Shown here: positions 13,264 to 56,250 of the stretch, one piece after another
How positions within the stretch are numbered: position 1 is the stretch's first letter
Layout of the letters: the number at the start of each line of letters is the position of its first letter
DNA from: Chloroflexota bacterium
GTDB taxonomy: Bacteria > Chloroflexota > Anaerolineae > Anaerolineales > Villigracilaceae
Assembly (NCBI GenBank): GCA_021414245.1
Contig: JAIOOU010000003.1
Coordinates: forward strand, 124,001-188,000
Direction: 5' to 3'
DNA length: 64,000 nucleotides
Notes under the pieces: model-generated
Told to the model about the DNA's origin: nothing
The model's database searches: none
What the model saw: only the letters and a program-made list of their open reading frames with translations
Program-made: the position numbers and the translations under genes

Positions 13264-14421
13264 TTAAAGTGCCATCAGTACGTGACTGACGGCCGTGGAG
13301 GCCGGCCCGCCAAGGGACTGAATGAGCCCGTACTTTGCGTTGGCGATCTGGTTCGCTTCCGCCTGACCCCGTAACTGGGTGACCGCTTCTGCGGCTTGAT
13401 ACACGCCGGAAGCGCCGCCCGGGAATCCGCGGGCCTTCATGCCGCCCATGGTGGCACACGGGATGCGCCCCTTCAACCCAATGGAACCGTCTTCGGCCAG
13501 CTTCCAGCCTTTGCCTTTGATCGCGAATCCGACAGCCTCGAGGGACAAGGCGGCGTAAATGCTAAAGATATCGTGATATTCAAAGAAGCTGACCTGGTCC
13601 AGGATGATCCCGGCTTGTTTCATGGCCCAGCCGGCCGAAGTCTGGGCGGTATCAAAGTACAGCATATCCTTGCGGTCATGCAGGGCGAGCGTGTCTGACG
13701 AGGCTGCCGAGCCGGCGATCTTCACGAGCTGATTCGGAAAATTGGACGGGAGCAGCTCGCGGCGGGTCAGAACCAGCGCGGCAGCGCCATCCGCATTGGG
13801 GGCCACATCAAACAGATTGACTGGGTCGCTGACCATTTCCGCTTTGGAGTAGGTCTCCGGTTTGATCGCTTTTCTGAACATCGCGTTTTTATTGGCAACG
13901 CCGTTGGCATGCGCCGTCAATGCGAAGTTGGCCAGCCCGTGCGCCGGGACATTGTGTTCGTGCATGTAGCGCTTCATCAGCAACGCGGCCTGGGCGGTGG
14001 TGGTCATGCCCTGCACGGCTTCGAAATCCGAATCGCTGGTGGTGGAGACAGCCTCCTCCACTTCCGGGCCGACCTTGTCGGTGAATTTCTCGATCCCGAC
14101 CACCAGGGCTACATCCACCATGCCGCTGGCGACGGCGAGATAACCCTGGCGCAAGGCTGCGCCGCCCGAAGCGCCCGCCGCTTCGACGGTCGCGGCTTCG
14201 ATACCGGTCAGACCGGCGTAGTCCGCGATGAGCGCGCCAAGATGCGCCTGATTGGAAAGGTTTGGCGCGAACATGTTGCCCACGTAAAGGGCCTGGGGAT
14301 TTAACCCGCCAGCGTCATGCTGCGCGGCCTGGATGGCGCGCAGCGCAAGATCGCGCAGGCTGATATCCCAATGTTCGCCGACCTGAGTTTGACCGATCCC
14401 TGCGATTACCACGTCTGTCAT
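13264..14421 (-). CDS. thiolase-family (SCP-x/archaeal-type acetoacetyl-CoA thiolase) protein
   Basis: VVIAGIGQTQVGEHW, EAAGASGGAALRQGYLAVASG, YHDIFSIYAALSLEAVGF, GGMKARGFPGGASGVYQ. Confidence 0.85.
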   Translation of the reverse strand: MTDVVIAGIGQTQVGEHWDISLRDLALRAIQAAQHDAGGLNPQALYVGNMFAPNLSNQAHLGALIADYAGLTGIEAATVEAAGASGGAALRQGYLAVASGMVDVALVVGIEKFTDKVGPEVEEAVSTTSDSDFEAVQGMTTTAQAALLMKRYMHEHNVPAHGLANFALTAHANGVANKNAMFRKAIKPETYSKAEMVSDPVNLFDVAPNADGAAALVLTRRELLPSNFPNQLVKIAGSAASSDTLALHDRKDMLYFDTAQTSAGWAMKQAGIILDQVSFFEYHDIFSIYAALSLEAVGFAIKGKGWKLAEDGSIGLKGRIPCATMGGMKARGFPGGASGVYQAAEAVTQLRGQAEANQIANAKYGLIQSLGGPASTAVSHVLMAL

Positions 14422-16855: not shown

Positions 16856-18184
16856 CTACGAAATCAATTCCTTCAAGATTTCCTCCGCTCTGGTCACCCT
16901 TATGGCTTTTTCCGCCACCATCTGTGCGGCGACTCTCTCGATCTGGTCGCCTTTGGCTCCGGCGGCCAGCGCGATCTGCCGGGCATGCAGGGTCATGTGT
17001 CCGCGCTGGATGCCTTCCGTGGCGAGGGCGCGCAGGGCGGCCATATTTTGAGCCAATCCCACGCAGGCGACGATCTCGGCCAGTTCAGCGGCGGTCGTGA
17101 TGCCCATCATCTTTACCGCGGCTTGTGCAGCCGGATGGACCTTGGTCGCGCCGCCCACAATTCCTACGGCCATCGGAATCTCGATCGTGCCGACTAAATT
17201 TCCGTTCGCATCCTTGCCCCAGGTGGACAGGGAGGTATATCTGCCCGAGCGCGCAGCATAGGCATGCGCGCCCGCCTCGATGGCGCGCCAGTCATTGCCG
17301 GTGGCAAGCACCACCGCGTCCACGCCGTTCATGATGCCTTTGTTGTGGGTCGCAGCCCGGTACGGGTCACTGGCCGCGAAGGCATACGCGGCGATGATGC
17401 CATCGCGCACGGTCTCGCCTTTGAAGGTTTCGAAGCCAACCGTCAATTCGTTGACCGGAACCGTGCAGCGCGCCCGCGCCATGCGCCGGTCTGAAAGATT
17501 GGAGAGGATGCGCAAGTGCACTTTTCCGCCCGTGATGGCCTCGATCTGCGGCGCGAGCCTTTCACAGGCAGTGTTGACCGCGTTCGCGCCCATCGCATCG
17601 CGCACGTCATAGATGAGATGTACGACCAGGAACGGTCCGATGGGGGAGTCCTCGATCAGACGAATCTCCAGGTCCCTGGCACCGCCTCCCATCATGCGCA
17701 GAGTTGATTCCGCCCGATCGGCATTGGCCAGCAGTTCGGCCTTGTGCTCATACAGTTTTAAACGTGCCTCGTCCATGTTGACCACATTAATGAGCTGCAT
17801 CTGTCCGATCATCAGGGATTCGGTGGTGGTGGCGGTGAATCCGCCGCCCGCCCGGACCAGTTTTGCCATGAACGACACCCCAGCCACAATGGAGGGTTCC
17901 TCGACTACAAAGGGAATGAGCACGTCCCGTCCGTTGATCATGAAATTCAACCCGACCCCGATCGGGAGCGAATACATTCCGACCACATTTTCGATCATGT
18001 GGTCCGCTGTTTCAGCGGAAAGTCCGCCCGTGGTAAACGGAAGCAGGTCTTCGGGAGTCAGAGGCGAGGCGTCCACCAACTTTGCGCGCCTCTCCTCGAG
18101 GGTCAGGTTGTAAAATCCGGAAATGCGGGAATTGGTCATTTGTTGGTCCAAGTGTAGTTTGAGTGCTCTTTCAAATTCTATCAA
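16856..18184 (-). CDS. hydroxymethylglutaryl-CoA reductase, class II (degradative-type sequence)
   Basis: ISGFYNLTLEERRAKL, ENVVGMYSLPIGVGLNFMINGRD, VEEPSIVAGVSFMAKL, ATHNKGIMNGVDAVVLATGNDWRA. Confidence 0.92.
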   Translation of the reverse strand: MIEFERALKLHLDQQMTNSRISGFYNLTLEERRAKLVDASPLTPEDLLPFTTGGLSAETADHMIENVVGMYSLPIGVGLNFMINGRDVLIPFVVEEPSIVAGVSFMAKLVRAGGGFTATTTESLMIGQMQLINVVNMDEARLKLYEHKAELLANADRAESTLRMMGGGARDLEIRLIEDSPIGPFLVVHLIYDVRDAMGANAVNTACERLAPQIEAITGGKVHLRILSNLSDRRMARARCTVPVNELTVGFETFKGETVRDGIIAAYAFAASDPYRAATHNKGIMNGVDAVVLATGNDWRAIEAGAHAYAARSGRYTSLSTWGKDANGNLVGTIEIPMAVGIVGGATKVHPAAQAAVKMMGITTAAELAEIVACVGLAQNMAALRALATEGIQRGHMTLHARQIALAAGAKGDQIERVAAQMVAEKAIRVTRAEEILKELIS

Positions 18185-20364: not shown

Positions 20365-21714
20365 ATGAACGCTGAGCAGGCTTGGCAATCAGTTCTCGCA
20401 CAACTTCAAATGGAAATGCCGCGCGCCTCCTTCGATACCTGGGTGCGCGATACCCGTCCCCTGGCGTATGAAAATGGGATCATTACCGTTGGAGTCCGCA
20501 ATGCATATGCGCGCGACTGGCTGGAAAGCAGGCTGTCAAGCACCGTCAGCCGGTTATTGATCGGAATCCTGAACTCAAATGTCTCGGTTGAGTTCATCGT
20601 AACCCAGGCTGACGAGAACGAATCAATTTCGGACCCCGAATCTGCTCCGGCTTCGATCGAAATCACCTCTCCCGAGCCAAAAGCGCGCCATGTGACGTTG
20701 AATCCGCGCTATACCTTTGATACCTATGTGGTGGGTTCAGGCAATCGCCTTGCCCATGCCGCCTGTCAGGCTGTTGCAGAGAAGCCGGCTCGTGCCTATA
20801 ACCCTCTTTTCCTCTATGGAGGCGTGGGTTTGGGTAAGACCCACCTCCTGCACGCCATTGGAAACGCCTGTCACGCCAGCGGACTGAATGTTTTGTATGT
20901 TTCCTCCGAGGAATTCACGAATGACATGATCACCGCCATTCGTACCCACACCACCCAGGCTTTCCGCGAAAAATACCGTTCGGCGGACGTGTTGCTGGTC
21001 GACGATATCCAGTTCATTGCCGGCAAGGAGTCGACGCAGGAGGAATTCTTCCACACCTTCAACACCCTGCATGGACAGGACAAACAGATCATTGTTTCGT
21101 CCGACCGACCTCCTAAGTCCCTGGTGACCCTTGAGGAACGTCTGCGCTCCCGCTTTGAGTGGGGTTTAAGCGCAGACATTCAGGCGCCCGATTTTGAAAC
21201 GCGCCTTGCCATTCTGCGCTCCAAGGCGGAGCGGACAGGCCGGCACATCTCCGATGATATTCTGGAGAGCATCGCCAAACGCGTACAGTCCAATATTCGT
21301 GAACTGGAAGGTGCCCTCAACCGAATTATTGCCTTTGCGGACCTGAGCGGTTCCGCCCTGACCCCCAGCCTGGTGGAAGTGGCCCTATCGGATCTTTTGC
21401 CTTCGCGCGGCGATATCGAGCCGGCCCGCGTGGTCGACCTGGTGGCTCGCAAGTTCAACCTGACGGTTGAAAAGTTGCTCGGCCGCGACCGCACCAAGGA
21501 TGTGGCTTTCCCCCGCCAGATCGCCATGTATTTGCTGCGCGAGGAAACCAATTACTCCTTCCCGCAGATCGGCGAAGTCCTCGGCGGACGTGATCATTCA
21601 ACGGTCATGTACGCCATCGAAAAAATTGCGGACCAGATCAAACACGATGATCGGTTGCAACGGGACATCGTCTCGCTCAAGCAGCAGATCAACGGTCAGG
21701 CCGCGACCGCCTAA
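20365..21714 (+). CDS. dnaA: chromosomal replication initiator protein DnaA
   Basis: PLFLYGGVGLGKTHLLHAIGN, VLLVDDIQFIAGKESTQEEFFHTFN, C-terminal signature FPQIGEVLGGRDHSTVMYAIEKI. Confidence 0.98.
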   Translation: MNAEQAWQSVLAQLQMEMPRASFDTWVRDTRPLAYENGIITVGVRNAYARDWLESRLSSTVSRLLIGILNSNVSVEFIVTQADENESISDPESAPASIEITSPEPKARHVTLNPRYTFDTYVVGSGNRLAHAACQAVAEKPARAYNPLFLYGGVGLGKTHLLHAIGNACHASGLNVLYVSSEEFTNDMITAIRTHTTQAFREKYRSADVLLVDDIQFIAGKESTQEEFFHTFNTLHGQDKQIIVSSDRPPKSLVTLEERLRSRFEWGLSADIQAPDFETRLAILRSKAERTGRHISDDILESIAKRVQSNIRELEGALNRIIAFADLSGSALTPSLVEVALSDLLPSRGDIEPARVVDLVARKFNLTVEKLLGRDRTKDVAFPRQIAMYLLREETNYSFPQIGEVLGGRDHSTVMYAIEKIADQIKHDDRLQRDIVSLKQQINGQAATA

Positions 21715-39471: not shown

Positions 39472-39626
39472 AGGATTGTATTTTGCCGTAGAACCGGTTT
39501 CCTAGCAAGCGGATTTTCCCATCAAATTGCAACTGTTTGGCATTTGCAAATCCATACACTGGGCACTATAATTCATTAATTAGAAGTTAATAGGAGCCTC
39601 CGCTGGAAACCAAAAACATTTCTTCC

Positions 39627-41483
39627 ATGGATTCGGGAGAGGATAACTCAGCTTCCCGTCAGCAACTCTCATCCGGGATCACTCTTGTCGACCGTTACAC
39701 CATTCAGGATGTGATCGGGGTTGGCGGCATGGGGTCTGTTTATCGCGCCAGGGACCTGCATTTTCCCAATGTGGTCAAACTGGTCGCGGTAAAGGAAATG
39801 ATCAACCTTGCCCCGGATCCGCTCATTCGCCAGACCATCGTGCAGAATTTTGAGCGCGAAGCCAACATGCTTGCCACGCTCAATCATCCTGCGATTCCGC
39901 GCATTTATGATTATTTCACCCAGAACGATCATTCCTACCTGGTCCTGGAATTTGTCCATGGGAAGGACCTCGAAACGGTGATCAGCGATGCCAACGGTTT
40001 CCTTCCGGAGGATCAGGTCATCAGCTGGGCCATCCAGCTTTGTGACGTGCTGGCCTATCTCCATGGACACAAACCGGATCCGATTATATTTCGCGACATG
40101 AAACCCTCCAATGTGATGATTAATCATAATGGGGATGTGGTTCTGGTCGATTTCGGGATTGCCAAGACCTTTCAAACCGGCCAGAAGGGGACCATGATCG
40201 GAACCGAAGGATATTCGCCGCCCGAACAATACCGCGGTGAAGCCACTCCAATTGCCGATATTTATTCCCTCGGGGCGGCCCTGCATCATGCCATTACACG
40301 CCGTGATCCGAGACTCGAGCCTCCGTTCTCGTTTGCGGAACGCCCCATTCGGCGGATCAATCCCAACATTTCGGCCGAATTTGAGGCTGTGGTTAATACA
40401 GCCCTCCAATACAACCCATCAGATCGTTTTACCAGCGCCACGGCAATGAAGGATGCCTTGATGAATGTTGCGCGCAAGACCGGCACACTTTCAAAGATCA
40501 CCTCCGCGCTGCCCGCCTCGAGTGCGGGCGTGAAGCCGCTCTGGTCCTTTAAGTGTGAGGATGAGATCCGCAGCACGCCCTTCCTAAACCAAGGCTCATT
40601 GTATATTGGCTGTTACGATAATAATTTGTATGCCCTGAATGCCGCGGATGGTCAATTCCAATGGAAATATGCGGCGGAAGGCGGAATTGTTTCCCGCCCC
40701 ACTGTGTACGATGGTAATATTTTCTTCGGGTCCGAAGATCAGCGCCTGCACGTCATCAGCGCGCGCACGGGCAAAGTCATATGGACCTACTACACGGAAG
40801 GGAAGATCTACTCCTCCCCCCGTATTTCCGACGGACATGTTTTCTTCGGCTCCGATGATCAGGACCTGCATGCGGTCAATGTCAACAGCGGAAGAGCCAT
40901 CTGGAAGTTTTCCACCGATGCCCCCATCCATTCCACACCTCTGGTTGCGAATGAGATGATCTATTTTGGCACAGAGGGCGGCTCCTTTTATGCCCTAGAT
41001 TTTCGCGGAGCAATGAAATGGCGCTTTCAGGCCAAACGTGCAGTGACCTCCTCTCCGATCCTGAAGGGGCAGGCCATTTACGTAGCCTCGGTTGATTCAA
41101 CCCTGTACTCCCTGGATTCGAAGAATGGCTGGGCAATTTGGAAATACCGGCTGGGCAAAGGCTCGGTATCCTCACCTGCACTGGCTGATGATCTGATATT
41201 TGTCGGCGCGGCAGATGGATTTATTTATTGTGTCGATTCCCGTACTTCCAAGGAAGTATGGCGTTTTAAGACCGAAAACCAGGTGAGCAGTTCCCCAACC
41301 ATTTACAAGGATTCAATGTATTGCGGTTCGGTGGATGGTAATATGTACTGTCTTGAATACCGGACCGGCCGTTTACGCTGGAAATTTGAGACCCAGGCGG
41401 CCATCACCGGTTCGCCGATTGTGCTTGATGATATTGTTTATTTTGGCTCAACAGACCATCATGTGTATGCCCTGTTTGCCTAA
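39627..41483 (+). CDS. serine/threonine protein kinase with C-terminal PQQ-like beta-propeller
   Basis: GVGGMGSVYRARD, PIIFRDMKPSNVMI, VDFGIAKTF, followed by eight xSP-type blade repeats; no hydrophobic segment between the domains. Confidence 0.95.
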   Translation: MDSGEDNSASRQQLSSGITLVDRYTIQDVIGVGGMGSVYRARDLHFPNVVKLVAVKEMINLAPDPLIRQTIVQNFEREANMLATLNHPAIPRIYDYFTQNDHSYLVLEFVHGKDLETVISDANGFLPEDQVISWAIQLCDVLAYLHGHKPDPIIFRDMKPSNVMINHNGDVVLVDFGIAKTFQTGQKGTMIGTEGYSPPEQYRGEATPIADIYSLGAALHHAITRRDPRLEPPFSFAERPIRRINPNISAEFEAVVNTALQYNPSDRFTSATAMKDALMNVARKTGTLSKITSALPASSAGVKPLWSFKCEDEIRSTPFLNQGSLYIGCYDNNLYALNAADGQFQWKYAAEGGIVSRPTVYDGNIFFGSEDQRLHVISARTGKVIWTYYTEGKIYSSPRISDGHVFFGSDDQDLHAVNVNSGRAIWKFSTDAPIHSTPLVANEMIYFGTEGGSFYALDFRGAMKWRFQAKRAVTSSPILKGQAIYVASVDSTLYSLDSKNGWAIWKYRLGKGSVSSPALADDLIFVGAADGFIYCVDSRTSKEVWRFKTENQVSSSPTIYKDSMYCGSVDGNMYCLEYRTGRLRWKFETQAAITGSPIVLDDIVYFGSTDHHVYALFA

Positions 41484-41494
41484 AAGGAGTCCTC

Positions 41495-42412
41495 GTGGCT
41501 GATTTTTTTCGAAAATTGTTTGGTGCTAAAGAAGAACCTGAATCTCCGAAAACAAAACAGGTTGACATGGTGACGACCGCCCCATTAACTGATCAGCAGA
41601 TCAGTTCGATTGTGGCGAATCAAAACCAAAAATATGAAATCAAACAGCTTGTGGCCAGCGCGGGACAATCCGTCGGGAAACAACGCGAACATAATGAAGA
41701 CAGTCTGCTGGCTCTCACAACTACCATCTCCGGGAGTGCCGAGAGCATTCCCTTTGGCTTGTATATTGTTGCCGATGGCATGGGCGGGCATCAATTTGGA
41801 GAGGTGGCCAGCAATGCCGCCATTCGGATCATGGGCGGTAACATCTCCAAGAAATTTCATTCCTATCTCTACAATTTACCCACACAGGGATTGCAGGACT
41901 CTTTGCAGGAGGTGATGGAAGCTTCGATTCTTGAGGCCCATCAATATGTACAACGGGAAGCTCCCGGCAGCGGGACTACGGTCACGGCTGCGCTCGTCCT
42001 TGGGCAGCAGGTGACGATTGCCCATGTCGGGGATAGCCGAGCCTATTCCATCTACTCGGACGGGAGAATTGAACCGATCACGCGTGACCATTCACTGGTC
42101 AAGCGACTTGAGGAACTCGGACACCTCAGCAAGGATGAAGCTGAAAACTTTCCCCATCGAAATGTTTTGATCCGCGCCCTGGGTCAGGGCGAAACGCTGG
42201 AAGCTGATATCTTTACCGTTCCCTTTCCACAGACTGGTTATCTGATGATCTGCAGTGACGGTCTTTGGGGAGTGATCAATGAAAAGGATATTCTGCGCGC
42301 GATTACAGAGGCGCCCAATTTGCATCGCGCCTGTCAGAATCTTGTGGATGCAGCCAACGCAGCCGGGGGACCCGATAATATTACGGTTATCCTCGCGCAA
42401 ATGATCGGATAA
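41495..42412 (+). CDS. PP2C-family protein phosphatase
   Basis: KQREHNEDSLLAL, YIVADGMGGHQFGEVAS, IAHVGDSRAY, MICSDGLWGVI, GGPDNITVIL. Confidence 0.95.
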   Translation: MADFFRKLFGAKEEPESPKTKQVDMVTTAPLTDQQISSIVANQNQKYEIKQLVASAGQSVGKQREHNEDSLLALTTTISGSAESIPFGLYIVADGMGGHQFGEVASNAAIRIMGGNISKKFHSYLYNLPTQGLQDSLQEVMEASILEAHQYVQREAPGSGTTVTAALVLGQQVTIAHVGDSRAYSIYSDGRIEPITRDHSLVKRLEELGHLSKDEAENFPHRNVLIRALGQGETLEADIFTVPFPQTGYLMICSDGLWGVINEKDILRAITEAPNLHRACQNLVDAANAAGGPDNITVILAQMIG

Positions 42413-42414
42413 AA

Positions 42415-43896
42415 ATGCCCTCCAACAAGCTGGATCATTACGCCATTCTTGGAGTCTTCCGTGATGCCTCACAGGAAGAGATTAAACGCGCGTATTTTGA
42501 AGCGGCTCAAAGATTGCATCCGGATAAAAATGTGGCTGCCGGGGAAACGGAATTATTCCTGGAAATTCAACAGTCCTATGAAATTCTCTCCAATCCCAAG
42601 CGTCGGAGTTTGTACGATGCAACGCTTCCGCCGATTATTGATGAGAACTCCATTGTTAAACACGAGGTGTTTTTCAGCCGCACCAACCTTGTAAAGGTGG
42701 GCGAGCCGCAACTGATCTATGTGCTGTTGGATGTAAGCCCGCGCGATCAAAAGGAAAGCCTGCCAGCCCCTCCATTGAACATCTGCCTGGTTTTGGACCG
42801 TTCCACATCCATGCAAGGCGAAAAAATGGACATGGTCAAGGCAACCGCGATCCAGTTGCTCCGCAGCCTGCGCCCCGTGGATGTCTTTAGCATGGTCACT
42901 TTCAGTGACCGTGCCGAGGTGATCATCCCAGCCGGACTCAATGTGGATAGCCGCAAGCAGGAGGGGCGGATCCAGATGATCCAGGCCTCCGGCGCCACTG
43001 AGATTTTTAATGGCCTTGAGGCCGGCATCAAGGAGATCCGTCGTACTCTTGACCCTTCGCGGGTGAATCACATCATTTTGCTTACGGACGGGCAGACCTA
43101 CGGGGATGAACAAGCCTGTTTGCAGCTTGCCGAGCAGGCAGCTGCCCAGAATATAGGGATCAGCGGCATGGGCATCGGCCATGAATGGAATGATATTTTT
43201 CTGGATGCGATCGCCAGTAAAACGGGTGGATCTTCGGCATATATTGCCAAACCCAAGGATATTCAACGGCTGCTGGTTGAAAAGTTTAATGCCCTGGTGA
43301 GTACTTATGCAGATGATGTTCTTCTGGAATTCAAGGAGCAGGAGGATGTGAAGATCAATTACGTGTTCCGTTTACAGCCTGAAGGCGGGGCTGTTCAAAT
43401 GGAATCCCCAATGCATCTTGGTCCGATTCTGCGGGACACCTCCCTGCATGTATTATTTGAAATTCTTGTCGGACCTTCGGCCATGGAAAAGGATGCCATT
43501 ACCCTTCTGAATGGATCATTGAAGATCTCCATTGCAGCCCGCTCCACTCCAGTTCCACCCATCCGGTTGAATCTGGCCCGTGATGTTGCCTCCGATCCCT
43601 CCCCTGAGCCTCCCCCCACGCGGATCTTGAGTGCGCTTTCACGTCTTACCCTGTATCGTATGCAGGAACGCGCCCGTGTAGCTGCGGATGCAGGTGAATA
43701 CGATGCTGCTGCGCGACATTTACAAAACCTGGCTACTCATCTGTTATCACAGGGCGAAAGTTCGCTGGCAAAAACTGCTTTGTTTGAAGCGGATAATCTT
43801 GAAAAGATGCATGCCTGGAGTGCCAGCGGAAACAAGGATATTAAATACAGCACCCGTGCACTCTTGTTGGCAGGGTCGAAGGAGAAGGCACGATGA
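42415..43896 (+). CDS. J-domain - VWA-domain fusion protein
   Basis: N-terminal DHYAILGVFRDASQEEIKRAYFEAAQRLHPDKN (HPD motif); VWA MIDAS DRSTSMQGEK, ATEIFNG, LLTDGQTYGDE. Confidence 0.92.
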   Translation: MPSNKLDHYAILGVFRDASQEEIKRAYFEAAQRLHPDKNVAAGETELFLEIQQSYEILSNPKRRSLYDATLPPIIDENSIVKHEVFFSRTNLVKVGEPQLIYVLLDVSPRDQKESLPAPPLNICLVLDRSTSMQGEKMDMVKATAIQLLRSLRPVDVFSMVTFSDRAEVIIPAGLNVDSRKQEGRIQMIQASGATEIFNGLEAGIKEIRRTLDPSRVNHIILLTDGQTYGDEQACLQLAEQAAAQNIGISGMGIGHEWNDIFLDAIASKTGGSSAYIAKPKDIQRLLVEKFNALVSTYADDVLLEFKEQEDVKINYVFRLQPEGGAVQMESPMHLGPILRDTSLHVLFEILVGPSAMEKDAITLLNGSLKISIAARSTPVPPIRLNLARDVASDPSPEPPPTRILSALSRLTLYRMQERARVAADAGEYDAAARHLQNLATHLLSQGESSLAKTALFEADNLEKMHAWSASGNKDIKYSTRALLLAGSKEKAR

Positions 43897-44402
43897 TCGA
43901 ATGTTCCAATTGTAAACATTCAAATTTGGATGGAACGATGTTCTGCGCGGAATGCGGTGCTCAGCTGATCGGCAAGGATAACCTCACAACCCAAAATATA
44001 TCCACACAACAATTCAGCCAGGTCAGCCCTCAAAAACCCAAAACGGATGTGTATCAGCCTTTTGACGGGAGTGATGCCTGGGGAAGTCTGCACTTGCTGG
44101 ATACCGGGCAGGTCCTGCCGCTTTCCACCAGAAATGAATTTACCATGGGCCGGGTGAGTGAAGGTCAGCCGATCATGCCGGATATCGACCTGTCTCCCTA
44201 TCAGGCTTATGCCGCAGGCGTATCAAGGCTGCATGGCGTGATCAAGAGAGTCGGAAACAATATTGTCATCGTGGATCTGGGGTCAGCCAATGGGACTTAT
44301 ATCAATGGAAAACGGCTCTCCCCCAATGCGGAACAGACCCTTAGCCATGGAGATATTATTGCACTCGGAAAATTAAAGATGCAGATCCTCCTTAAGAGTT
44401 GA
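43893..44402 (+). CDS. zinc ribbon - FHA domain protein
   Basis: CSNCKHSNLDGTMFCAECGAQL; FHA motifs TMGR...SRLHGVIKRVGNNIVIVDLGSANGTYINGKRL. Confidence 0.92.
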   Translation: MIECSNCKHSNLDGTMFCAECGAQLIGKDNLTTQNISTQQFSQVSPQKPKTDVYQPFDGSDAWGSLHLLDTGQVLPLSTRNEFTMGRVSEGQPIMPDIDLSPYQAYAAGVSRLHGVIKRVGNNIVIVDLGSANGTYINGKRLSPNAEQTLSHGDIIALGKLKMQILLKS

Positions 44403-44426
44403 TAAAAAGGAAAGAGAGAATATTTC

Positions 44427-44672
44427 ATGCCGTATTCCGTGATTATCCATATTGCCGGGGAACCTTCCGTGGCCGGCGAGATCGAAGAACTTCCCAAGCC
44501 CACTGATACCAGCATTTTGGTGATGAACCCGCGCCAAAAGGATGGCAAGGACCTGCATTACATTGATAATAATGTTGTCAAGGTCATCTGGCCGATGGCC
44601 AAGGTCAGTTTTATCGAGATCCTTGAAAGCGCAGAGGAAGAAAAGATCATAGGCTTCGTAAGGGACAAATAA
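44427..44672 (+). CDS. small conserved-looking protein
   Basis: 81-aa ORF in tight operon spacing between the FHA gene and response regulator. Confidence 0.6.
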
Positions 44673-44674
44673 AC

Positions 44675-45394
44675 ATGACTGAGTCATTGGAGCGTCGTCG
44701 CATCCTGGTTGTGGATGATGAGGAACGCATGGTGCGTTTCATACGCATGAACCTGGAACACGATGGTTTTCAGGTCAGTGAGGCCTTTAATGGCAAGCAG
44801 GCCATTCAAAAACTTCGCGATGTCACCCCGGACCTTATTCTTTTGGATATTATGATGCCGGACCTGGATGGTTTTGAGGTCCTCGAAACCATTCGCGAGA
44901 TCACCACCGTGCCAGTTATCATGTTGACCGCAAAAGGCGAGGAGGATGACCGGGTACGCGGACTGGAGGGCGGCGCGGACGATTACGTCACCAAGCCGTT
45001 CAGCCCAAGGGAACTGGTCAGCCGGGTAAAAGCGGTGTTGCGCCGGACCGAGGGCGCCACCGGTTCCATGCACGGACTGCTTGAGATCGACAAACGGCTT
45101 AAGATCGATTTCGACCGCCGGGAGATCTGGCTGGAAGGCAAACTGGTGAAACTTCGCCCGACGGAATATCGCCTGCTCTTTCATCTGGTTCAAAATGCGG
45201 GCTGGGTGGTTTCGCACGATCAATTGCTCCAGAAGGTTTGGGGGTATGAATACCGCGATGAACCGCATTATGTGCGCCTTTATATTAATTACCTGAGGCA
45301 GAAACTCGAAAAGGATCCTGCCGACCCCAAGTACATTCTCACCGAGCGGGGAGTGGGGTACCGGTTTGTGGATTTTAAACGCGCAAAAGAGTAG
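44675..45394 (+). CDS. OmpR/PhoB-family response regulator
   Basis: [29 protein letters not shown], winged-helix [28 protein letters not shown]. Confidence 0.95.
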
Positions 45395-45419: not shown

Positions 45420-45456
45420 AAAACGCCTGCGTTTTTCTAACGCGGGCGTTTTAAAT
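45420..45456 (+). terminator. intrinsic terminator
   Basis: AACGCCTGCG TTTTTCTA ACGCGGGCGTTTT. Confidence 0.7.
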
Positions 45457-49884: not shown

Positions 49885-49967
49885 ACCCCGCCAGTCTAAC
49901 CCTTGCATGCCGGTTCCGTTTGCGGGATTTGCGCAATCATTTTTTACATAATAAGGAAGTATTTCGA

Positions 49968-50138
49968 ATGGTGAAAAGAACATACCAACCCAAGATCCGC
50001 CGCCGCGTGCGTGTACACGGCTTCAGACAACGCATGTCCACGGCTGACGGCCGTAACGTGCTCAAGCGCCGCCGTCTGCGCGGCCGCTACAGGCTCACTG
50101 TGAGATCCAACGAACACGTCAAGAAAACTCGTTGGTAG
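49968..50138 (+). CDS. rpmH: 50S ribosomal protein L34
   Basis: start at internal ATG 49968: [45 protein letters not shown]. Confidence 0.97.
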
Positions 50139-50183
50139 GAAACTGCGTATTCTTAATACGCGGAGAAAATTATCGAGGCACGG

Positions 50184-50534
50184 GTGCAGAGAAGATTTCG
50201 TCTGTCCCGATCTGAAGATTTCAAGCGGGTGCGGCGAATTGGCAAGTCCTATGCCCACCCGCTTGTTGTGTTAGTTGCGCAGGCCAATGAAACCTCTGCG
50301 AATGTTCGGGTGGGGGTGGCGGCCGGAAAGTCAACCGGCGGGGCGGTTGATCGGAATCGAGCCAAAAGACTCCTGCGGGAGGCCATGCGCCCCCATCTTG
50401 AGACTCTCGCTTCCGGTTGGGACTTGATCCTGATCGCCCGGCCCGCGCTTGTGACCGCCACTTTGGAAGATACCCGTTCCGCCCTGTTCAACCTGCTGAG
50501 ACGTGCAAAACTATTACCTGCGGATGAATCCTGA
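50184..50534 (+). CDS. rnpA: ribonuclease P protein component
   Basis: GTG start; [38 protein letters not shown]. Confidence 0.95.
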
Positions 50535-50820
50535 AGAAGAATTCCATTTACATGATTATTCCCACGAGCCGCGTTTGCGCGATTTGCCGCGTACAGTGGT
50601 GAATTGGCCGCGCATCGGGTTGCTGGCTTTGTTTCGTTTATATCAAATGATCGTCTCCCCGTTCATTCCGGCAAATACCTGCCGCTTTTACCCATCCTGC
50701 TCCCATTATGGCTATCAAGCCGTTTATAAACACGGTGTCTTGAAGGGCTCGCTGATGGCGATCTGGCGTGTTTTGCGTTGTAATCCGTTTAATCCGGGCG
50801 GGTACGACCCTGTTCTTTAG
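50503..50820 (+). CDS. yidD: membrane protein insertion efficiency factor YidD
   Basis: [61 protein letters not shown]; alternative start ATG 50524. Confidence 0.95.
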
Positions 50821-50875
50821 CGACATTCTCACAGCGGCCGGGTGTTGCTGTGATTAATTAGGAGAAGTAACCAAC

Positions 50876-51961
50876 TTGAAAACAAAACGATTGACCTTGA
50901 TTTCATTGCTCATGCTGCTGGGTTCGTTGATCCTTAGTGCATGCAGCGGGGGACGGGGAGTTTCCAATAATTGGCATGGACTGACTGCCGACTCGGAACG
51001 TGCCTATCTGTCAGACGGAACCTTTGTGTACGCCGTGGATTTGAAGACCGGCAAGGAAGTCTGGCATTTCCCTCCACAAGCTGATTCCAAAATGATGTTC
51101 TATGCAACACCGGTGCTCACTGCAGACGGTCAACTTCTGATTGGGAGTGCAGGTACCAAACATCCCTTCTACAGCATTGATTCCGCCACCGGCAAGGAGA
51201 ACTGGGCAGTGCCCTTCACCGAAAACAAGGGAGCCTGGCTGGCTTCCCCTCTTGTCGTTAATGACAGGATCTATGCGCCGAACACCGACGGTTTCCTTTA
51301 TACAATTGACATGAATGGAAAGTCGGCTGCCGACCCCATTGAACTCGGCGGAGCATTATGGTCCGCACCCTCCACGGACGGCACTTTGTTATATGTAACC
51401 TCCCTGGACCATCATTTTCATGTGATTGATCCGACTTCCGGTCAATCGAAAACGCCGATTGATCTTGGCGGCGCCGCTCCCAGCAGCCCAGCCGTGGGTG
51501 ATGGAATGGTCTACGTCGGTTCCTTTGCCGCGACAGTCGAAGCCATTCAGGCCAATGGCGACCACAAGGTTATTGCGACCGCAGACAACTGGATCTGGGG
51601 TTCCCCGATTCTGGATGGGAACACCCTGTATTACGCCGATCTTGATGGAAAGATCTATTCCCTGGATCTTGCCAGCGGAAAACAAAACTGGGACACCGTC
51701 CAGCCGGACGGCCCAGTCGTGGCGAGCCTGTTGGTTGTGGGGGACCAGATCTACGTCGGGACCGAAGCGGGGACTCTGGTCGCGCTCGACCGCGATGGAA
51801 AAACCCTCTGGGATAAAACCGTTGGCGGTAAGATCTATACCACGCCTGTTCTGTCAGGTGATTTGATTCTCGTTGCGCCGTACACGGCTGATTTCATTCT
51901 TGCCGCCTACGATGCGGAAGGCAAACAGGCCTGGATCTTCACGCCTGTTGCCGCTAAATAA
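50876..51961 (+). CDS. PQQ-like beta-propeller repeat lipoprotein
   Basis: TTG start; lipobox LILSAC; blade repeats YAVDLKTGKEVWHF, YSIDSATGKENWAV, YSLDLASGKQNWD. Confidence 0.85.
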   Translation: MKTKRLTLISLLMLLGSLILSACSGGRGVSNNWHGLTADSERAYLSDGTFVYAVDLKTGKEVWHFPPQADSKMMFYATPVLTADGQLLIGSAGTKHPFYSIDSATGKENWAVPFTENKGAWLASPLVVNDRIYAPNTDGFLYTIDMNGKSAADPIELGGALWSAPSTDGTLLYVTSLDHHFHVIDPTSGQSKTPIDLGGAAPSSPAVGDGMVYVGSFAATVEAIQANGDHKVIATADNWIWGSPILDGNTLYYADLDGKIYSLDLASGKQNWDTVQPDGPVVASLLVVGDQIYVGTEAGTLVALDRDGKTLWDKTVGGKIYTTPVLSGDLILVAPYTADFILAAYDAEGKQAWIFTPVAAK

Positions 51962-51973
51962 GGAAACTGAGCC

Positions 51974-52759
51974 ATGTGGGATACCATTATCATCCACCCG
52001 ATGACCAATCTTCTGTTGTTGATCTATGACCTATTGGGTCATGGTCCGCACACCTTTGGCCTTGCGATCATCCTTTTTACCATCATCATCAAGGTGATCA
52101 CCTGGCCCTTGAATGCCTCCCAGGTCAAGGGAGCGCAGGCCATGCAGGAACTCCAGAACGACAAGGAATGGCAGGAGATCCAAAAGAAATATGCAAAGGA
52201 TAAGGAAAAGATCGCCCAGGAACAGATGCGTATTTACAAGGAACGCGGCATCAATCCCTTTGCATCCTGCCTGCCGACCCTGATCCAGTTCCCGATCATC
52301 ATTGGTCTGTATCAAAGCATTACGCGCGCCCTGTCGATCACCCCGTTTGACATGTTAAAGCTCGCCCGCACGATCTACCCCTTCCAGAATGTGGAGGGGA
52401 TCATTCCGCTCAACAGCAAATTTCTGTGGATGGACCTCGGCCGGCCCGAATCGATTCAGATTCTGGGATTTGCCCTGCCGACTCTGGCGATCATTGTGGC
52501 CCTGACCACCTACATTCAATCCAAGCTGACCATGCCCGCCACTTCGAATCCCAATGACCAATCCGCGCAGATGACCGGCATGATGAGCATTTACATGCCC
52601 CTGATGCTGGGCTGGTTTGCCCTGAATTTCGCATCCGGGATCGCGATCTATTTCATCACAAGTAACTTGTTGGGTATTGCCCAGTACGCCGCAACAGGCC
52701 GGGCCAACTGGCGTAACCTGCTGCCCGGCGGCAACAAACAAACCGTCAAGAAAAAATAG
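51974..52759 (+). CDS. yidC: YidC/Oxa1-family membrane protein insertase
   Basis: GLAIILFTIIIKVITWPLNASQVKGAQAMQELQ, RGINPFASCLPTLIQFPIIIGLYQSI. Confidence 0.95.
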   Translation: MWDTIIIHPMTNLLLLIYDLLGHGPHTFGLAIILFTIIIKVITWPLNASQVKGAQAMQELQNDKEWQEIQKKYAKDKEKIAQEQMRIYKERGINPFASCLPTLIQFPIIIGLYQSITRALSITPFDMLKLARTIYPFQNVEGIIPLNSKFLWMDLGRPESIQILGFALPTLAIIVALTTYIQSKLTMPATSNPNDQSAQMTGMMSIYMPLMLGWFALNFASGIAIYFITSNLLGIAQYAATGRANWRNLLPGGNKQTVKKK

Positions 52760-52768
52760 GGAGGCTCC

Positions 52769-53608
52769 ATGAGCGGAACTACGCTTGAGATCATTGCCCC
52801 AACTGTTGAAGAGGCCCTTGCCCAGGGACTCTCCCAACTTGGACTTACGGCAGATGCTGTTTCCATTGAAGTGTTGGATTCAGGCAGCAAGGGGTTGTTC
52901 GGGCTTGGCGGGCGGCAGGTGCGTGTCCGGCTGACTGTAAATCCGGAGCCCGGTGAGGAGATTCCTGCCGCTGCATCCGCACCCTCCGCACCCGCGCGAT
53001 CGGGGCCGCGCTCAAAGCCTGCGCCTGCAAAACAGAGCGACTCAGCACCCAAGGCGAAGGAAAGCAAACCCCGCCGCGCCGAGAAGAAGCCTGAAGACAA
53101 GGCTCCCGTGGCTGCCAAAAAGTTTGACCATGATGAGCATGACTCGATCCTGGATACGACCGAATCGATCGTATCGAAACTGATCCATCATTTGGGCATG
53201 GAAGCGCAGGTTTCCGCGCATTATGACGAGTCGAGTTCAGACGACCGCCGCACCATCCACGTGGATGTGCGCGGCGACAATCTCAGTTCCCTGATCGGCC
53301 GTCAGGCCGAAACCTTGAATTCATTTCAATATGTTGCCTCCCTGATGGTCGGCAAGGCCACCCAGCAATGGGTGCAGCTTGTGGTGGATGTCGAAGGCTA
53401 CCGCAGCCGCCGCGACAAACAGGTCCGCCAGATTGCCCTGCGCATGGTGGACCAGGTCATCAAGACCGGCAAGAAAGCCACCCTTGAGCCGATGACAGCC
53501 AGTGAACGACGCGCGATCCATATTGAATTGCGCGGTCATCCGGCGGTCACGACCGAAAGCACGGGCGAAGAGCCGCACCGCAAAGTGGTCATTCTGCCGA
53601 AGGAATAA
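52769..53608 (+). CDS. Jag/KhpB-type RNA-binding protein (Jag-N, KH, R3H)
   Basis: Jag-N TVEEALAQGLSQLGLTADAVSIEVLDSGSKGLFGLGGRQVRVR; R3H-like ALRMVDQVIKTGKKATLEPMTASERRAIHIEL. Confidence 0.9.
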   Translation: MSGTTLEIIAPTVEEALAQGLSQLGLTADAVSIEVLDSGSKGLFGLGGRQVRVRLTVNPEPGEEIPAAASAPSAPARSGPRSKPAPAKQSDSAPKAKESKPRRAEKKPEDKAPVAAKKFDHDEHDSILDTTESIVSKLIHHLGMEAQVSAHYDESSSDDRRTIHVDVRGDNLSSLIGRQAETLNSFQYVASLMVGKATQQWVQLVVDVEGYRSRRDKQVRQIALRMVDQVIKTGKKATLEPMTASERRAIHIELRGHPAVTTESTGEEPHRKVVILPKE

Positions 53609-53625
53609 ATTCCTGTGCTCCATTA

Positions 53626-53657
53626 AGAAAGGCCGCCCACGGGCGGCCTTTCTTTTT
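53626..53657 (+). terminator. intrinsic terminator
   Basis: AGAAAGGCCGCCCACGGGCGGCCTTTCTTTTT. Confidence 0.85.
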
Positions 53658-53721
53658 ACCATTATTTTGTCATTCTCCCTGTGGCGGATGAAAGATTACC
53701 CCCTACGGTATAATTCGACCC

Positions 53722-54582
53722 ATGCCTGATCTTGTCCCGCTTCAACCTGTCGATTATCTTGTGATCGGTCATATTGCGGTGGACATTTCTCCCGCATCCG
53801 CGACAGGTGTACAGCTGGGAGGAACGGTTTCCTATTCCGCGCTAACAGCCCGGGCGCTGGGACTGCGGGTCGGGGTGGTGACTTCCTCCGCGGAGGGCGC
53901 GCCCTTGCAGGCCCTGGATGGGATCCAGATTATCAATGTTCCCGCGGAACACAGCACCACCTTTGAAAACGTAAAAACAAAGGATGGCCGCAGACAGACC
54001 TTGCATCATCAGGCCCTGCCCATCACTTTGGATCAGATCCCCCCTGCCTGGCGGAACGCTCCGATCATTCATCTTGCACCGATTGCGCGCGAATTGAACG
54101 CATCTCTGCCGGAAAAACTATCGGGGACTTTGCTGGGAATCACCCCGCAGGGTTGGATGCGGGTTTGGGATGAGAATGGCCGGGTGGCTGCCGGTCCCTG
54201 GGAAAACAGGGAGCAGGCCCTCCGTTATGCAGGAGCCGTGGTCATGAGTGTGGAGGATGTCGATCGCGATCTGGAACTGGTCGAAGAGATGGCGCATCAG
54301 ACCCGCATCCTGTGTCTGACGGAAGGGGAGGCGGGCTCGGTCCTGTACTGGAATGGAGACCGCCGTCGTTTTCGACCTCCAGTTGTTGAAGAAGTGGATG
54401 CCACGGGTGCTGGCGATATTTTTGCAGCCGCATTTTTTGTCCGTTTGCAGGCCACGCGCGATCCCTGGGAGGCTGCACGATTTGCCACACAACTTGCGGC
54501 GCGTTCCGTGACCCGGACCGGCCTGAAGGGGATTCCCACCTCAAGGGAAATAGATGAATGTCTGATGGAGGTATTATCGTGA
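53722..54582 (+). CDS. PfkB-family carbohydrate kinase
   Basis: GGTVSYSALTARALGLRVGVVTS; C-terminal signature VDATGAGDIFAAAFFVRL. Confidence 0.88.
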   Translation: MPDLVPLQPVDYLVIGHIAVDISPASATGVQLGGTVSYSALTARALGLRVGVVTSSAEGAPLQALDGIQIINVPAEHSTTFENVKTKDGRRQTLHHQALPITLDQIPPAWRNAPIIHLAPIARELNASLPEKLSGTLLGITPQGWMRVWDENGRVAAGPWENREQALRYAGAVVMSVEDVDRDLELVEEMAHQTRILCLTEGEAGSVLYWNGDRRRFRPPVVEEVDATGAGDIFAAAFFVRLQATRDPWEAARFATQLAARSVTRTGLKGIPTSREIDECLMEVLS

Positions 54583-55358
54583 CGCGTATTTATACGCTCG
54601 TAAATCAAAAAGGCGGGGTGGGTAAAACCACGACAACGATCAACCTGGGCGCCTACCTGGCCGAATTTGGGCAGCGGGTGCTGGTGGTGGATCTTGACCC
54701 GCAGGCCAATGCAACCTCCTGTCTGGGTGTGGATAAGCTGGGTGTGAAGGGCGGCACCTATGAAGCCCTGCTTGGGGATACCAATATTTTTTCCTATGTT
54801 TTATTGAATGAAAGATTAAAATTATCCCTGCTTCCCTCCTCGCCGTCCCTTGCAGGTGCGGAGGTGGAGTTGGTGGATGAACTGGCCCGGGAAATGCGCC
54901 TGCGCAAGGCGATCGCTCCGCTGGCTGATAAATTTGACTACGTATTGATCGATTGCCCGCCCTCCCTTGGCCTGCTGACTGTGAATGGGCTGATGGCGGC
55001 CATGGATGGCGTCATCGTGCCTGTGCAATGTGAATATTTGGCCCTGGAAGGTTTGGGACAATTGACTCAGACCATTGAACGCGTCCGATCCCTGCTCTTT
55101 CCGGAGTTGAGCGTGCGCGGCGTGGTGTTGACCATGTTCGACAACCGCACAAACCTGTCCACAGATGTGGTTACGGAAGTGAATAAACATTTTCCAGACC
55201 AGGTCTTCAAGAGCGTCATCCCGCGCAGCGTCCGTCTCGCGGAAGCGCCTTCGTATGGTTTGCCGATCTCGATCTATGCACCCGGCTCGGTGGGCGCGCA
55301 GGCGTATGAAGCGCTGGCGAAGGAATTGTTGAAGAGCGATGGTGTGAAGGCCAGGTAG
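54579..55358 (+). CDS. parA: ParA-family chromosome partitioning ATPase
   Basis: GTG start 54579: TRIYTLVNQKGGVGKTTTTINLGAYLA; VLIDCPPSLGLLTVN. Confidence 0.93.
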   Translation: MTRIYTLVNQKGGVGKTTTTINLGAYLAEFGQRVLVVDLDPQANATSCLGVDKLGVKGGTYEALLGDTNIFSYVLLNERLKLSLLPSSPSLAGAEVELVDELAREMRLRKAIAPLADKFDYVLIDCPPSLGLLTVNGLMAAMDGVIVPVQCEYLALEGLGQLTQTIERVRSLLFPELSVRGVVLTMFDNRTNLSTDVVTEVNKHFPDQVFKSVIPRSVRLAEAPSYGLPISIYAPGSVGAQAYEALAKELLKSDGVKAR

Positions 55359-55392
55359 CGCGCCCTTCCCGTAAGGACATTAAGGAGTTTGT

Positions 55393-56250
55393 ATGGCTCA
55401 ACGAACAGGTCTTGGAAAAGGATTGGATGCGCTCATCCCATCAGGTGCAAAACCCGGCTCTTCCAACACGGGAGCAGGTGGGGTGATGCAGGTGGCTGTG
55501 GATGCCATCCGGCCGAACCCACGCCAGCCGCGTGTGCATTTCAAGGAGGAGGATCTGGCGGAATTGGCTGCATCCATTCGTGAACATGGCGTGATTCAGC
55601 CGTTGATCGTCTCCCCAAAACCGGATGGGACCTATATCCTGATCGCAGGCGAACGCCGCTGGCAGGCCTCCCAAAAGGCCGGTTTACGCACCGTCCCGGT
55701 CATCCCGCGTGAGGCGACCAATCAGGAATTGCTCGAGATCGCCTTGATCGAAAATGTGCAGCGTGCGGACCTGAATTCAATGGAGGAAGCTGAAGCCTAT
55801 CGGCAGCTGGTTGAGGAATTCGGGCTTTCGCACGAATCGGTTGCAAAGAGAGTCGGGAAAAATCGTGTCACGGTCACCAACACGCTGCGTTTGCTGGGAC
55901 TTGCCGAAACGGTGAAGCAGGCCCTGGTCGATGGCAAGCTGACCGAAGGTCATGCCCGGGCGTTGCTGGCCCTGTCCACGCAAAAGGCGCAGGCTTCCAT
56001 CCTGCAAACGGTATTGAACCTGTCCTTAAGCGTTCGTCAGACCGAGGAATTGGTTCGCAAGCTGGCCGGACAAAAACCGATCAAGGCCAAAAAGCCCGGC
56101 CGAAATGCGGATGTGAACGATGTTGAAAAGCGGCTGCAAAACAGTCTGGGTACAAAGGTCGCCTTGAAGCACGGGAAAAAAGGCGGTACGGTCACGATCT
56201 ATTATTATTCCAACGAGGAATTGGATTCGCTGCTGGAGAAGTTAACCTAG
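55393..56250 (+). CDS. parB: ParB-family chromosome partitioning protein
   Basis: IRPNPRQPRVHF, LAASIREHGVIQPLIV, YILIAGERRWQASQKAGL, VAKRVGKNRVTVTNTLRLL. Confidence 0.95.
   Translation: MAQRTGLGKGLDALIPSGAKPGSSNTGAGGVMQVAVDAIRPNPRQPRVHFKEEDLAELAASIREHGVIQPLIVSPKPDGTYILIAGERRWQASQKAGLRTVPVIPREATNQELLEIALIENVQRADLNSMEEAEAYRQLVEEFGLSHESVAKRVGKNRVTVTNTLRLLGLAETVKQALVDGKLTEGHARALLALSTQKAQASILQTVLNLSLSVRQTEELVRKLAGQKPIKAKKPGRNADVNDVEKRLQNSLGTKVALKHGKKGGTVTIYYYSNEELDSLLEKLT

Follow-up and report, generated by a model that had tools for sequence, protein, structure and literature searches.

A conserved six-gene unit of Chloroflexota as a candidate phospho-threonine switch resembling ArnA-ArnB

Gene content and transcription unit

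The window analysed here is the whole 64,000-nt stretch of Chloroflexota contig JAIOOU010000003.1 (assembly GCA_021414245.1), and all coordinates are positions within it; every feature listed below lies on the + strand. At 39603–45394, six co-directional and densely packed genes form one unit, which encodes, in this order, a Ser/Thr kinase fused to a propeller, a PP2C phosphatase, a J domain-von Willebrand factor A fusion (J-VWA), a zinc ribbon-FHA protein, a small protein of 81 aa and an OmpR-type response regulator. We propose that this unit is a self-contained phospho-threonine (pThr) switch, built by analogy like the archaeal ArnA-ArnB system and equipped with its own kinase and phosphatase; we put the probability of this reading at roughly 0.6. 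An earlier note on the window had described five tightly spaced genes followed by an OmpR-type regulator, all of which are present, co-directional and closely packed, with median intergenic gaps of 11, 2, -4, 16 and 1 bp in relatives. The regulator had been placed after the cluster; this adjacency holds, but because the gene starts only 2 bp downstream and its position is conserved across the class, we count it as a member of the unit.

A sigma-70-type promoter (TTGCAA-N17-TATAAT, 39544–39572) precedes the kinase gene. It matches the consensus at 10 of 12 positions and has no second exact occurrence in the window (expected number: 0). Close relatives conserve it, and it was recovered at the equivalent position in 30 of the 55 named ones. 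Downstream of the regulator gene, a hairpin (45420–45452) with a 14-bp stem (-21.9 kcal/mol, z -6.3 by folding) forms a terminator-like end of the transcription unit. A simple terminator scan did not call this hairpin, the T-run probably being located within the stem. Neither an Rfam nor a tRNA scan gave a match in the window.

The first gene (39603–41483) encodes a soluble Ser/Thr kinase (Pkinase, 9e-43) with a PQQ/BamB-like propeller, which is recognised by propeller models and whose W-x-[FY] blades, each some 40 aa long, number exactly eight. The best Kyte-Doolittle (KD-19) window reaches 1.46 and a transmembrane segment is therefore absent, which agrees with the kinase fused to an eight-bladed propeller without membrane anchor that the earlier note had proposed. 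Very probably, the gene does not start at the annotated ATG 39627 but at the non-canonical CTG 39603, because a Shine-Dalgarno sequence (AGGAG) is found at 39592, several relatives share the CTG and others have an ATG in its place, and the upstream coding stretch 39603–39626 is conserved. The catalytic residues K56, E78, D157, N162 and D175 as well as the activation-loop residue T193 were kept in all 50 orthologues compared, T189 in 48 of them. Elsewhere in the window (50876–51961), near origin genes, propeller repeats of the PQQ/BamB-like type also occur in a predicted lipoprotein.

The second gene (41495–42412) codes for a PP2C phosphatase (PP2C, 3.6e-18; Stp1-type model, 9e-65), whose metal-site Asp residues are retained in 49–50 of 50 orthologues. 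It is followed by the J-VWA gene (42415–43896), with strong matches to DnaJ (4e-20) and VWA (2e-17). Its product consists of a J domain (residues 7–68), a beta-sandwich/VWA part (81–392), a helical bundle (402–470) and a C-terminal tail that is probably disordered, as suggested by its low pLDDT in an AF2 model with an overall pLDDT of 82.7. The residues D128, S130, S132, T195 and D225 of the metal ion-dependent adhesion site are invariant or nearly so, and the HPD motif is invariant in the J-bearing close orthologues; the orthologue of locus L052 lacks HPD. The fourth gene (43893–44402) encodes a zinc ribbon, a linker and an FHA domain (8e-16). The score of the ribbon model is just under the cut-off, yet its four Cys residues are invariant in 52 of 52 homologues, and so are R87, S111 and N133 of the FHA pThr pocket. 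Writer, eraser and reader are all encoded, and the phosphosignalling system that had been suggested before is borne out as a conserved unit, including the domain assignments of these proteins.

Searches of Pfam, NCBIfam and PADLOC gave no match for the 81-aa open reading frame (44427–44672). Judging from its conservation, it is a real protein with a family of its own, as the earlier note had assumed: one copy each was found in 127 of 298 sampled Anaerolineae genomes. The five-stranded model (pLDDT 85.7) predicts a small beta-barrel, and in a fold search against the PDB Sm/LSm proteins made up nearly all of the top 50 matches (best E 0.008, TM 0.5–0.6, none at E<=0.001); the protein is termed Sm-like here rather than Sm. 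A sequence search of the family against the PDB gave no significant match, and viral contigs contained no relative.

The last gene (44675–45394; Response_reg and Trans_reg_C) encodes an OmpR/PhoB-type response regulator that belongs to the unit only in the Anaerolineae, with phospho-acceptor D58 and K107 kept in 40 of 40 sequences. A histidine kinase partner downstream of it was considered and dismissed, the neighbours being unrelated genes in the loci checked; in one locus (L075), a RelA/SpoT gene follows the regulator. Like Streptomyces AfsK, the first protein of the unit is a cytosolic Ser/Thr kinase with a C-terminal PQQ-like propeller (model match 1e-70), so the propeller fusion is not the distinguishing feature it had been taken for. 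This raises the question whether the main target of the kinase is the neighbouring regulator, as in an AfsK/AfsR-like pathway that VWA, FHA and PP2C only tune. The close and, across the Anaerolineae, conserved position of the regulator would suit such a pathway, as would its T106 in V-T-K-P-F, which is the equivalent of a site phosphorylated in WalR. On the other hand, V-T-K-P-F is common throughout the regulator family, the two-component residues are intact, so that the protein probably answers a histidine kinase, and the Chloroflexia retain the other five genes without it. The curated AfsK model reached 239 bits at a cut-off of 1300, a likeness in the kinase alone, and AfsK is not known to be part of such an operon. 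We regard an AfsK/AfsR-like pathway as unlikely.

Conservation and distribution

Within the genus, 37 genomes were searched and 36 of them have the J-VWA gene, as do most families sampled from the order. In loci from this order, the six-gene arrangement is kept while the flanking genes change. Among 80 named relatives, 69 possess all six genes in order; in the other 11, the locus is truncated by a contig end. A contig scan, restricted to its best 80 loci, gave Anaerolineae or Chloroflexota titles, with one Herpetosiphon and one Brevefilum among them. VWA orthologues (E<=1e-105) are present in 114 sampled Anaerolineae genomes, and 113 of these also have the 81-aa gene; since the genomes are related, the Fisher value for this co-occurrence should not be taken as a true probability. 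The search for co-occurrence that had been recommended thus came out decisively in favour of a conserved unit.

In the Chloroflexia, the order kinase-PP2C-VWA-FHA-81aa is preserved without the J domain and without the regulator. More distant loci show the order PP2C-kinase-PP2C-VWA-FHA and lack the 81-aa gene. From this comparison, the core consists of five genes, to which the regulator is an Anaerolineae addition. Among the 114 Anaerolineae VWA orthologues, about 11 have no J domain, and it is likewise missing in one family (f2) and in all Chloroflexia examined while the rest is kept. The J domain is therefore an optional add-on; as a hallmark that sets the cluster apart, the role first given to the J-domain fusion, it does not hold. 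The same absence bears on the idea of a proteostasis module, in which the J-VWA and a neighbouring Hsp20 would form a phosphorylation-switched scaffold recruiting Hsp70 clients. The invariant HPD of J-bearing close orthologues would be in line with this function, and an hsp20 gene follows the unit in many relatives, but it is not constant and lies beyond the hairpin. Since the unit persists where the J domain is lost, we consider a proteostasis module quite improbable.

Kinase, PP2C and VWA genes are adjacent also in TerY-P and in triads described for actinobacterial conflict systems (PMC7159879), and a likeness to TerY-P-type triads had been pointed out in the earlier note. On a reading of this kind, the three genes would constitute a defence or stress module. 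The kinase domain indeed matches the defence kinase models PD-T4-6 and Mad6, but these matches cover the generic kinase domain only. No other defence gene is part of the unit, no ter or GAP1-N2 genes were seen, and a search of the genome for TerD found none, whereas control genomes gave matches. The FHA reader, the Sm-like protein and the set of Thr-x-x-Leu/Ile motifs (see below) are not described in these triads. Finally, one copy per genome, strict order and near-universal presence in the genus are typical of a core locus and not of an accessory one. A conflict-type module is therefore very unlikely, and ArnA-ArnB matches better than TerY-P. Assignment to a PADLOC defence system was likewise dismissed, as PADLOC matched the kinase only generically, the PP2C and the response regulator weakly, and the VWA, FHA and 81-aa proteins not at all.

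Kinase, PP2C, FHA and VWA domains also work together in the threonine phosphorylation pathway of type VI secretion (PpkA/PppA/Fha). In the unit, the VWA domain is located on a separate protein, and the annotated part of the window holds no secretion genes. Beyond Chloroflexota, the searches covered plasmids and viral contigs, and neither contained such a unit. VWA matches on plasmids of Cyanobacteria and Deinococcus were rejected as members of the same system: four loci read (L194–L197) lack the kinase/PP2C/FHA set. There, the related-type VWA gene directly follows a MerR-family regulator gene, a recurrent MerR-VWA pair, and one of these loci has a macro domain beside CRISPR-associated genes.

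Threonine motifs outside the folded domains

Four proteins of the unit (kinase, PP2C, J-VWA and FHA protein) carry a Thr-x-x-Leu/Ile (TxxL/I) motif, in each case located beyond the folded domains. The ligand of FHA domains is pThr, and the +3 residue is read by many of them as well, e.g. in pTxxI (PMC4037201). The TxxL/I motif would correspond to this pThr+3 signature, with both phosphorylation and FHA binding predicted from sequence.

In the PP2C, the motif T28-A-P-L31 (41576–41587) is situated in a disordered N-terminal segment. Its Thr is found in 42 of 50 diverse orthologues, with a hydrophobic +3 residue in 41 (98%) and Pro at +2 in 38 of these 42; T.P[LIVMF] occurs in 41 of the 50, as compared with a mean of 5.4 and a maximum of 12 after shuffling. 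The FHA protein has T33-Q-N-I36 (43989–44000) in the linker between ribbon and FHA domain. Here, Thr is conserved in 49 of 52 diverse orthologues and +3 is hydrophobic in 47 of 49 (96%), and 121 of 133 unique linkers contain TxxPhi (shuffle mean 76, max 89). In both motifs, hydrophobic residues hardly ever occur at +1, +2 and +4. As a control, a hydrophobic +3 residue was found for only 28% (PP2C) and 36% (FHA) of the other Thr residues in the same segments, and for 12% and 29% of the Ser residues.

The C-terminal tail of the J-VWA contains T480-R-A-L483 (43852–43863; consensus K-Y-G-T-R-x-L), and T480, R481 and L483 do not vary among 25 diverse sequences. Among unique VWA tails, 135 of 139 have T[RK]x[LIMV], a count that is anchored on a T followed by R or K. 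This invariant T480-R-x-L tail lends support to the earlier suggestion that the J-VWA is a candidate substrate of the kinase. The kinase itself has T-K-N-I near its N-terminus (T3-x-x-I6 if numbered from the CTG, 39609–39620). T[RKQHE]x[ILMVF], typically as (L/M)-E-T-[RKQH]-x-[IL], was present in 88 of 96 kinase N-termini (shuffle mean 22, max 34); of the four, this profile is the most prone to bias, as it was anchored on a T plus polar residue and the true starts are uncertain in some genomes. In three Chloroflexia loci (L087, L089 and L107), kinase N-termini have several tandem motifs of the T-R-Q-I type upstream of the kinase domain, while the Anaerolineae usually have one. Two loci of one lineage of the same class (L075 and L096, family f49) have lost the Thr of both the PP2C and the FHA-linker motif and have kept the VWA-tail motif; coupling of the two motifs would lead one to expect such a joint loss.

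Bacterial Ser/Thr kinases have been reported to favour a hydrophobic +3 residue. The TxxL/I motifs might therefore be a substrate or docking consensus of the kinase, by which each enzyme is controlled directly and without FHA assembly. The Pro at +2 of the PP2C motif would also fit such a consensus. The same +3 signature in four unrelated proteins of one operon with an intact FHA reader is, however, what a set of FHA ligands predicts. The two readings are not mutually exclusive, and we deem direct control without FHA assembly rather unlikely.

Resemblance to ArnA-ArnB

The best fold match of the J-VWA model in the PDB (Foldseek) is the ArnAB complex of Sulfolobus (8s05, E 6e-22); 5a8j, a paralog of ArnB (ArnE), ranks fourth. 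For the FHA protein, the ArnA chains 8s05_C and 5a8i are the best annotated matches at about 1e-6 (8.3e-7), ahead of GarA and OdhI. According to published work (PMC12852372, PMC6509490, PMC7472852), ArnA is composed of a zinc finger and an FHA domain, and ArnB of a VWA domain, a split beta-sandwich and a helical bundle. Unphosphorylated, the two form a loose complex via the zinc finger; phosphorylation of the C-terminal region of ArnB by ArnC results in a tight FHA-pThr complex, and PP2A is the reported phosphatase. Similar to ArnA of Sulfolobus acidocaldarius, the reader of the unit has an N-terminal zinc ribbon and a C-terminal FHA domain. Its modelled VWA domain is, as in ArnB, inserted in a beta-sandwich and followed by a C-terminal helical bundle. 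Like the ArnAB pair with its kinases ArnC/ArnD and PP2A, the unit also has a kinase and a Ser/Thr phosphatase, which we propose to act on the pair. In contrast to ArnAB, it is bacterial, has a dedicated PP2C and propeller-kinase within the same operon, and adds a J domain, an Sm-like protein and a regulator. The 2026 ArnAB paper mentions similarly shaped bacterial VWA proteins and, in the parts consulted, describes no bacterial reader-VWA pair with dedicated enzymes; as the literature covered was open-access, an earlier description elsewhere is possible. In the same genome, a second FHA domain adjoins a VWA domain (G000, contig C3, 9232–10419), possibly a paralogous reader-VWA pair.

Several points weigh against a switch of the ArnA-ArnB type. 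The phospho-sites of ArnB are many, redundant and located in the helical bundle, whereas the unit has a single conserved tail Thr, and Pfam ArnB_C was not detected at E<=1. VWA plus beta-sandwich plus helices is a widespread fold, and the Catenulispora VWA 4fx5 scores nearly equal to ArnAB; for this reason we place weight on the reader-VWA pair and the motifs and not on the fold. Selectivity for pThr+3 is not universal among FHA domains (PMC4037201), and TxxPhi may be the substrate consensus of the kinase instead of an FHA ligand. The 81-aa protein and the regulator are left unexplained by the TxxL/I motif, and with 14 FHA and 10 kinase domains in the genome, cross-talk with domains from outside the unit is possible. 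Our proposal is based on sequence, statistics and models. With ArnB_C unmatched, a different layout of phospho-sites and binding that is only predicted, we do not file the unit as a member of ArnAB and call it ArnAB-like. That it works like ArnAB is an analogy in which we have moderate confidence.

GarA and OdhI offer a second parallel. The FHA protein of the unit shares with them a T-x-x-hydrophobic peptide N-terminal to the FHA domain (T33-x-x-I36), predicted to be phosphorylated, and its kinase shares with PknG a disordered, Thr-rich segment at the N-terminus as a candidate FHA dock. Both features have a precedent in PknG-OdhI/GarA, where the FHA domain docks on the N-terminus of the kinase once this is phosphorylated, and where the peptide preceding the FHA domain is phosphorylated as well (PMC8546545). 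Unlike the reader of the unit, GarA and OdhI have no zinc ribbon and no VWA partner and act on enzymes of the TCA cycle, and PknG carries a TPR domain where the unit kinase has a propeller. The curated OdhI model NF041660 gave 33 bits for the FHA protein at a cut-off of 200.

Proposed mechanism

Gene content, conservation of the unit, motifs and intact active and binding sites were read from sequence and statistics; from them we infer phosphorylation, binding, switching, signal and output. In our proposal, the propeller would sense an intracellular ligand or partner, possibly a protein complex as the earlier note had suggested, and control the kinase, which would phosphorylate the TxxL/I tags, i.e. 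its own N-terminus, PP2C T28, FHA-protein T33 and T480 of the VWA tail. The FHA domain would bind these pThr tags and gather kinase, PP2C and VWA. By analogy with ArnAB, the zinc ribbon may tether reader and VWA loosely before phosphorylation, with a tight complex through the FHA-pThr contact thereafter. T33 of the reader could bind in cis to the FHA domain of the same molecule, a situation known from GarA/OdhI, or connect several copies in trans, and the pThr-bearing N-terminus of the kinase could serve as a docking site for the reader, as it does in PknG. The PP2C, recruited by its own tag, would reset the switch. Where present, the J domain might recruit DnaK/Hsp70, which would then remodel either the complex or a client of the VWA protein, and the regulator might carry the output to transcription, which is plausible only for the Anaerolineae. 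The most far-reaching form of this proposal is a Chloroflexota-wide, bacterial ArnAB-type switch whose kinase, phosphatase, VWA scaffold and reader would all be equipped with an FHA ligand of their own and organise themselves into a pThr complex, joined by a new Sm-like family; here we see the chances as evenly balanced.

Bacterial Ser/Thr kinases are common, yet a sequence seldom allows one to predict their substrates and readers. In the present case, a single operon points to a writer, an eraser and a reader as well as to four precisely located candidate phospho-sites. If our proposal is true, a bacterial phylum would possess an ArnAB-like module, so far described as a regulator of archaeal motility, together with enzymes dedicated to it, and the unannotated family of Sm-like proteins would obtain its first functional setting. 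The unit is a core single-copy locus of many Anaerolineae, which are abundant and mostly uncultured, and whose signalling is almost uncharted.

Genomic surroundings

In this genome, the unit is placed between dnaA/rpmH-type origin stretches, while its flanks differ in the wider order. Pfam matches to dnaA and rpmH at 20365–21714 and 49962–56250 indicate an origin-type neighbourhood, and genes at about 51974–56250 resemble yidC, jag, parA and parB by sequence. The segment 25871–34069 encodes tryptophan biosynthesis (TrpE, a TrpGD-type fusion, TrpC, a PALP enzyme that is probably TrpB, and TrpA), with a class I tRNA synthetase of the W/Y type among these genes. HMG-CoA reductase (16856–18184) and thiolase (13264–14421) suggest a mevalonate-type isoprenoid route in this genome.

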